Shown here in pieces: positions 1 to 21,014 of a stretch of 64,000 nt of DNA. How positions within the stretch are numbered: the first letter of the stretch is position 1; every line of letters starts with the position of its first letter. Below the pieces are notes generated by a model, which saw only the letters and a program-made list of their open reading frames with translations, was not told the DNA's origin and made no database searches. A program made the position numbers and the translations under genes. This DNA is from an uncultured Flavobacteriaceae bacterium (lineage in GTDB: Bacteria; Bacteroidota; Bacteroidia; Flavobacteriales; Flavobacteriaceae): positions 1-64,000 of the forward strand of contig CAKZOR010000084.1 of the NCBI GenBank assembly GCA_937136755.1, read 5' to 3'.

Positions 1-637
1 AAAGACATCCATAAGTCATTATGCAACATAGATATAAATTGTAATTAAAGGCTTTTATTTCGTTTAGTATTGCTGAGACATCTTCAAACGGTTTGTTGAG
101 GTTAGCTTTAGATTTTTTTGCTTTAACTTTTGCTATAGGATTTGAATCCATTCCAAGGTTTACTGATTGACTAATAAGGGCGCTCAAATGACGCCTAACT
201 GAATTATAACTTGCCTTAGAAGGTTGGTTTGTGAGAAAACCTCTAATGCTATCTTCAGTAATTCTGCTGCAGGAAAGTGTCTTTTCAAATTCAGAGCTTA
301 AATAAAGTAATGTTTGCTTATACTTATTAGAATAATCTCCCTCAAGTTTAGATTTAACTGCTTTCTTAAAGTACTCTAAATCTGATAGCGAGCCTGATAA
401 AACCTCATCTCCCCTATATTCCTTTAAAACACCGCCTTTTTGTATATATGTATAAACCTCGTTGGCTAATATTTTAGCATGTACATCTCGGTCTTTTACA
501 GGAAAGCTGTTTGGATTTAAATTGGAATTAATTCTTTTTCCATTAAACAACCTATATCTTTTGTTGTTCAAGTAAAATGAAACGAATACTTTTTTTGACT
601 TAGTAACTCCTACTGTTGGGTAATTAATTGTTTCCAT
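1..637 (-). CDS. Tyrosine recombinase / phage-type integrase, N-terminal part (C-terminus beyond window start)
   Basis: Not in the ORF track because it is open at the edge. Reverse-strand translation from ATG at 637: METINYPTVGVTKSKKVFVSFYLNNKRYRLFNGKRI...YFKKAVKSKLEGDYSNKYKQTLLYLSSEFEKTLSCSRITEDSIRGFLTNQPSKASYNSVRRHLSALISQSVNLGMDSNPIAKVKAKKSKANLNKPFEDVSAILNEIKAFNYNLYLCCIMTYGCL..., open to position 1. SAM-like core-binding domain followed by the start of a catalytic domain in the style of Bacteroidota integrases; adjacent to a truncated tRNA. Confidence 0.8.
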   Translation of the reverse strand, partial: METINYPTVGVTKSKKVFVSFYLNNKRYRLFNGKRINSNLNPNSFPVKDRDVHAKILANEVYTYIQKGGVLKEYRGDEVLSGSLSDLEYFKKAVKSKLEGDYSNKYKQTLLYLSSEFEKTLSCSRITEDSIRGFLTNQPSKASYNSVRRHLSALISQSVNLGMDSNPIAKVKAKKSKANLNKPFEDVSAILNEIKAFNYNLYLCCIMTYGCL

Positions 638-708
638 TTGGCAGTGCTCTGACAGTTAAACTTTGTTTGACTGTATAATGAGCTGAAACACAATTATTTG
701 GTGAAGAT

Positions 709-757
709 GACCACCTGATTATGAGTCAGGTGCTCTAACCAACTGAGCTATAGGACC
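709..757 (-). pseudogene. Truncated tRNA gene, anticodon CAU (Met or Ile2), lacking T-arm and 3' acceptor strand
   Basis: Reverse complement GGTCCTA-TA-GCTC-AGTTGGTTA-GAGC-A-CCTGA-CTCATAA-TCAGG-TGGTC is a good 5' acceptor/D-arm/anticodon arm. It continues ATCTTCACCAAATAATTG with no TTCRA T-loop and no TAGGACC 3' acceptor strand. Confidence 0.75.
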
Positions 758-895
758 CGCATTACTGCGAACCTTTCAGTGAAAGGAGGGTGCAATATTA
801 CTACTTATTTTAAAGCAGCACAAGAAAACGCTTAAATTAGTTACTCAAAAGTCGCTAGCCTAATAAAGCTTAAAACGGCCACAAATCGTAGCTGC

Positions 896-1315
896 TTATA
901 ACTGCTCACAAAGTTCTATTAAAACGCCTGTGGTGTCTTTGGGGTGCACAAAGGCTATGCGTTTTTGGTCTGCGCCTAGAATGGGGGTCTCATGAATGAG
1001 TCTAAATCCTTGGGCTTTGAGTTGGGCTAAAGAGGCCACAATGTCTTTTACCAAGAAAGCCGTATGGTGCATGCCTTCTCCATTGGTGTGGAGAAATTTG
1101 GCAATGGGACTTTCTGGAGCGGTGGGGAATAAGAGCTCTATTTTACTTTCGCCTACTTTAAAAAAGGAGGTGATGACCTGTTGGGAAGCCACTGTTTCTC
1201 GCTTGTATGGCGCCACGCCCAACAATTGGGTATAGGTTTTCTCTGCGGCATCTAAGTCTTTGACCGCAATACCAATGTGGTCTATTTTCTCTGCGCCAGG
1301 GACTAAGGAGCTCAT
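896..1315 (-). CDS. mce: Methylmalonyl-CoA epimerase
   Basis: 139 aa, VOC-fold signature EKIDHIGIAVKDLDAAEKTY...HHTAFLVKDI...GVLIELCEQ. Confidence 0.9.
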   Translation of the reverse strand: MSSLVPGAEKIDHIGIAVKDLDAAEKTYTQLLGVAPYKRETVASQQVITSFFKVGESKIELLFPTAPESPIAKFLHTNGEGMHHTAFLVKDIVASLAQLKAQGFRLIHETPILGADQKRIAFVHPKDTTGVLIELCEQL

Positions 1316-20935: not shown

Positions 20936-20943
20936 AATTTCTG

Positions 20944-21014
20944 AGGCATCGAGCAGATTCGAACTGCTGTACAAGCTTTTGCAGAGCTCTGCCTAGCCAC
21001 TCGGCCACGATGCC
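20944..21014 (-). tRNA. tRNA-Cys (GCA)
   Basis: Reverse complement GGCATCG TGGCCGAGTGGCTAGGCA GAGCT CTGCAAA AGCTT GTAC AGCAG TTCGAAT CTGCT CGATGCC T; complete cloverleaf with GCA anticodon. Confidence 0.93.

Follow-up and report, generated by a model that had tools for sequence, protein, structure and literature searches.

Nearly all known elements that target tRNA genes replace the 3′ side of the gene, so that the host promoter keeps driving the tRNA; elements of the reversed kind are rare and known mostly as single cases. Replacement of the 5′ half has been documented, if infrequently, in both bacteria and archaea (PMC6563490, PMC8371274): reversed-target bacterial elements are those of Zhao and Williams 2002, as relayed by PMC6563490, and the archaeal pTN3-like integrases are of the reversed-target type as well (PMC8371274). 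The anticodon arm of a tRNA gene, in which a 7-base loop separates the two halves of a 5-bp inverted repeat, was matched by earlier authors to the lambda core (PMC8371274). The family that we describe here differs from these reversed-target systems in that it comes from Bacteroidota and in that it unites usual and reversed elements in a single integrase family, with the two types also sharing tRNA species as targets. With the ordinary 3′-half islands and phages of the anticodon-arm class (PMC8371274) it shares an arm-binding N-terminal integrase part, a crossover placed in the anticodon arm and a rebuilt tRNA, but the native piece at our locus is the 5′ half, and the rebuilt tRNA of the family lies at the integrase-distal end. 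In the tRNA-dependent lysogeny of mycobacteriophages (PMC10865867) the host tRNA gene is likewise broken beside the integrase end; however, in those phages a complete tRNA is carried and none is rebuilt, whereas the relatives described here rebuild theirs. Tycheposons of Prochlorococcus, as described in PMC10872708, also combine marine bacteria, a tyrosine recombinase beside tRNA genes and changeable cargo, although this is a resemblance by description only, and the elements here are mostly 3-11 kb and belong to Bacteroidota. In the open-access papers searched, we found no description of the Bacteroidota family or of orientation switching.

The window that we analysed covers the opening 64 kb of contig C84 (71,326 bp), part of the fragmented draft genome of a marine flavobacterium (1.96 Mb in 151 contigs, 88.8% complete) whose family is judged from its relatives. 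We propose, at a probability of roughly 0.88, that the window starts inside a small integrative element that entered a tRNA-Ile2 gene in reversed orientation and whose far end rebuilds the tRNA. We call an element usual when the native 3′ part of the tRNA gene lies beside the integrase, and reversed when, as in the window, the native 5′ part does. Read from the core-gene side, the locus consists of a gene with a glyoxalase fold, 138 bp that contain TAATATTG, the 5′ half of the tRNA gene, a further 71 bp and the integrase start at position 637. The glyoxalase-fold gene (896-1315, minus strand) is probably a methylmalonyl-CoA epimerase, judging by its domain match and its synteny with genomes G001, G009 and G010, and rbfA, also recognized by a domain match, follows at 1413-1808 on the plus strand; both are core genes and lie to the right of the break, where the original prediction had placed mce and rbfA. 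The TAATATTG motif (793-800, minus strand) matches the consensus of a Bacteroidota-type -7 box and is the predicted native promoter of the tRNA. The sole complete tRNA that ARAGORN called within the window is an intact tRNA-Cys gene at 20943-21014 (minus strand).

The tRNA gene beside the integrase is represented by its native 5′ half, nucleotides 1-49, at 709-757 on the minus strand (GGTCCTATAGCTCAGTTGGTTAGAGCACCTGACTCATAATCAGGTGGTC, read from 757 down to 709), and is broken after the variable loop, with the T-arm and the 3′ acceptor strand missing. The Rfam tRNA model matched 668-757 (minus strand, 31.4 bits) with a fit confined to the 5′ side, ARAGORN called no tRNA gene at the broken site and the T-loop motif GTTCRA does not occur within 117 nt counted from tRNA nucleotide 1. 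In all five same-genus genomes with a complete site (G001, G003, G005, G009 and G011) the tRNA at this position is intact, and the window is identical to them exactly through nucleotide 49, at window position 709, where the identity stops and the relatives continue with CCTGGTTCGAGCCCAGGTGGGACCA and the window with ATCTTCACC. The contig of G010 ends within the T-arm, which places that genome outside the complete-site set. This confirms a CAU tRNA gene with an intact 5′ half and without its T-arm and 3′ acceptor strand, and the break that the original prediction had put at about 709 is exact. Its expectation of a 3′ end reading TAGGACC was mistaken: the actual strand is TGGGACC, which forms a G-U pair, so a search for the TAGGACC pattern matched nothing, and the corrected TGGGACC is also absent from the assembly.

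Because the two other CAU tRNAs of the genome, both separate and intact, are the initiator (fMet) and the elongator Met tRNA, the broken gene is identified by elimination and by sequence as tRNA-Ile2, the reader of AUA. AUA occurs 335 times in the 41 long open reading frames of the window, where it makes up about 28% of isoleucine codons, and a working tRNA-Ile2 copy must therefore exist somewhere; on the same ground, the earlier suggestion that the tRNA may have been lost is unlikely. No intact tRNA-Ile2 gene was found in the genome bin. When 400 family genomes were searched with the exact core for a broken copy, the window was the sole match, and the matches to the core in viral contigs proved to be complete, phage-borne tRNAs. 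We also considered, and dropped, a group I intron as the cause of the split: the break lies at the variable loop, and what follows is an integrase instead of a 3′ exon.

The integrase reading frame (2-637, minus strand) runs leftward off the window, as predicted, with its start 71 bp from the tRNA fragment where about 70 had been estimated. It comprises the N-terminal 212 codons of a tyrosine integrase, open throughout, and the catalytic half would lie past the contig start. The fragment matched the 'integrase' family PHROG_1 at 3e-9 and aligned with relatives that are at most 54% identical; it had no match at the Pfam cut-off, and the full-length relatives carry PF00589 with conserved catalytic residues. 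The catalytic half, the cargo and the far end of the element are absent from the source assembly, and the only two recombinases in the bin with a Pfam catalytic domain resemble XerC and XerD by length and setting.

The DNA between the integrase and the tRNA ties the window to other elements. At the integrase start lies TGTCA-N6-TGCCA (639-654, minus strand), a putative arm-type repeat for integrase binding, which occurs once in the 64 kb with both strands counted. It is a form of a family signature: TGYCA-N6-TGYCA was present around the integrase start, and never reversed, at 35 of 76 loci compared with 46 of 4800 random stretches, and many loci without the exact motif show close variants. The same motif, in the same direction, recurs 45-189 bp inside the far end in 13 of 26 bounded elements. 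The break is not due to chance, because the 5′ half is followed by this signature at the integrase start. The integrase-side arm (637-687, minus strand) is present once in its own genome and is almost identical in sequence to the arms of same-genus elements inserted in other tRNA genes: 48 of 51 positions are identical to the arm of L135, in tRNA-Asn of G005, and the arms in tRNA-Asp (G001) and tRNA-Arg (G002 and G009) are also close. All of these tRNA-Asn, tRNA-Asp and tRNA-Arg elements have the usual orientation. There is a hint that the window arm may keep a mirror-image D-arm remnant of a usual-orientation ancestor, for which shuffling gave about 1 in 100 in the Asn and Asp comparisons and 5-9 in 100 for Arg.

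Full-length relatives in the 400 family genomes, 32-47% identical, nearly all adjoin split tRNA genes. A profile search of GTDB contigs returned at least 116 relatives, and we fetched 80 loci, almost all of them labelled Flavobacteriales or Bacteroidota; the few other names are probably misbinned. Relatives were recovered only with the profile built from full-length relatives, and scans with the single integrase-fragment protein gave no match in genome or viral contigs. With the window fragment as query, the family was found neither in 50,697 phage records nor in 72,556 plasmid records, and a profile search of IMG/VR gave one distant match. Within the genus, the family or its remains occur in 7 of 12 genomes, the source genome included. 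Two integrase copies in G011, L095 (G011:C5:327646-327864) and L098 (G011:C8:63879-64007), are decayed, one of them with internal stops. A tRNA fragment lies upstream of the integrase at 74 of the 80 fetched loci, in 73 of them at 28-113 bp from the matched start, and of the six loci without one, four are truncated by the end of a contig.

Both ends are visible in 30 elements (3-11 kb, with one of 24 kb): 26 fetched loci, one element each from G324, G166 and G031, and the G009 element in tRNA-Arg. All 30 have a direct repeat of the tRNA piece at their two ends and a complete tRNA at the integrase-distal end, although a complete far-end tRNA was the selection criterion for 26 of them. ARAGORN also accepted the near copy in five usual-type loci because only its first few nucleotides are changed. 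Across the loci the tRNA reads away from the integrase in 61 (usual) and towards it in 13 (reversed), and among the 30 bounded elements 25 are usual, replacing the 3′ part, and five are reversed, replacing the 5′ half (L119 and L120, which are near-duplicates, L178, L188 and the G324 element). Each of the five reversed relatives has, at its integrase-distal end, an additional copy of the 5′ half fused to the native 3′ half, so that the tRNA there is intact. At the integrase end they resemble the window, where the fragment with the native upstream region has indeed been left broken (709-757, minus strand), unlike the common 3′-end integration; the original guess that the element supplies a replacement 5′ half at its other end is for this reason well supported, holding directly for the five relatives and by extension for the window, whose own far end lies outside the assembly. 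The best parallel is L178 (AG-349-I20), a reversed element in tRNA-Ile2 with a 49-bp repeat whose copies lie 5,570 bp apart and with a TATTTTTG box, by consensus match a predicted promoter, before the rebuilt tRNA. A clear promoter box is not visible before every rebuilt tRNA of the bounded elements.

The repeats also suggest where recombination takes place. In reversed elements they span tRNA nucleotides 1 to 43-49, except in the G324 element, which has a longer repeat, and in usual elements they begin at nucleotides 5-37 and most reach the 3′ end. The two sets overlap at nucleotides 37-43, which places the crossover in the anticodon arm; in the window the corresponding candidate core is CCTGACTCATAATCAGG (nucleotides 28-44; 714-730, minus strand).

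The empty site is known because the chromosomal sequence on the other side of the insertion opens a second contig of this assembly, C134. G009 carries in one unbroken stretch the left flank of the window, an intact tRNA and the region homologous to the beginning of C134: homology to C84 extends as far as 2096, the last base of the tRNA is 2122 and homology to C134 sets in at 2268, such that base 1 of C134, where the genome's own copy of the region behind the tRNA starts, corresponds to 146 bp past the tRNA end. The gene behind the tRNA in G009 is fasciclin-domain-like, a candidate named by eye. Behind the fasciclin-like gene of L035, at about 690 (minus strand), near the intact tRNA of G011, we observed ATGAGTCAGGTGG, which repeats a short part of the tRNA-Ile2 anticodon arm in inverted orientation and may be the relic of an old insertion or a chance occurrence. 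The comparison with an empty-site relative shows an intact tRNA in same-genus genomes and both flanks joined in G009, and the integrase, the break point and the empty site all fit the predicted attachment end of an integrated element.

We therefore envisage an element of probably a few kilobases, from the Bacteroidota tyrosine-integrase family, that would have recombined, in reversed orientation, at the anticodon arm of tRNA-Ile2(CAU). Beside the integrase, the native gene persists as a dead fragment made up of its promoter and 5′ half. At the far end, a promoter of the element and its own copy of about nucleotides 1-49 would be fused to the native 3′ half and so rebuild a complete tRNA-Ile2, as judged from the five relatives with both ends. 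The core site would be the anticodon arm, which is nearly palindromic, with TGYCA repeats next to the integrase start and within the far end acting as arm sites. The rebuilt tRNA of this element is not seen because its far end, catalytic half and cargo are missing from the assembly.

A rival reading is that neither end rebuilds the tRNA and that a whole tRNA-Ile2 lies elsewhere in the element, as in the mycobacteriophages of PMC10865867. This mechanism is already documented, and it would be compatible with a broken visible end and a bin with no intact Ile2 gene. We consider it improbable for the window, given that the far-end tRNA is rebuilt in the five reversed relatives with both ends and that the shared repeats are 43-49 bp or longer and not a short core of about 10 bp. 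That the integrase fragment was wrongly joined to the tRNA during assembly might be suspected from a junction at the very end of a contig in a fragmented draft, but the junction coincides with the break point of the family, the arm DNA and the integrase spacing agree with those of separately assembled relatives and the arm is genus-specific, which makes a chimera very improbable. Just as small is the chance of a decayed or dead-end insertion that lost its far half and left the cell living without tRNA-Ile2: decayed integrase copies are known in the genus (G011), but the frame here is open over all 212 codons, AUA makes up about 28% of the isoleucine codons and the missing part falls in an assembly gap.

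Returning to the reversed insertion with a rebuilt tRNA, we find it more probable than not that the integrase lineage has repeatedly switched between the 3′ and 5′ tRNA part, with the near-palindromic anticodon arm enterable both ways, and that the window is a recent flip, because its arm is nearly the same DNA as that of the usual-orientation same-genus elements in tRNA-Asn, -Asp and -Arg. The symmetry of the arm would permit entry in either direction. Both orientations are found in tRNA-Ile2 and in tRNA-Ala(GGC), and they interleave on an integrase tree of 76 rows, on which the 14 reversed rows need nine state changes, seven of them forced by strongly supported branches; this is a quick tree with several long branches, a half-length row for the window and a somewhat clustered reversed group. 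In L165 and L172 an element-type promoter precedes the tRNA-Ile2 5′ half beside the integrase, in L165 together with a TGCCA repeat, which looks like tandem stacking, with one element inserted into a tRNA that an earlier one had rebuilt.

No gene family other than the integrase is shared by all 26 bounded elements from the fetched loci. A conserved protein of 71-117 amino acids without a Pfam match, present in 13 of the 26 (for example L122, L178 and L181), may assist replication or transfer. In 12 of the elements there is a loosely defined cluster of secreted or lipoprotein-like proteins, of which some contain DUF285. Type IIG restriction is carried by L135 and L195, both of the window's own genus, type I restriction by L176 and L180, and GmrSD by L176. 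The 24-kb element, of the usual type and inserted in tRNA-Ile2 (L109-L110; G031:C51, about 3.3-27.3 kb), has by inspection sulfatase-like and SusC/SusD-like genes and resembles a polysaccharide-utilisation set. The family, unseen in the searched phage and plasmid collections, has both restriction systems and surface proteins among its cargo in marine flavobacteria. With both orientations in one family, in some cases in one and the same tRNA and with integrase arms that are almost identical, it offers a natural experiment on how orientation is chosen and on the handing of essential-tRNA promoters to mobile DNA.
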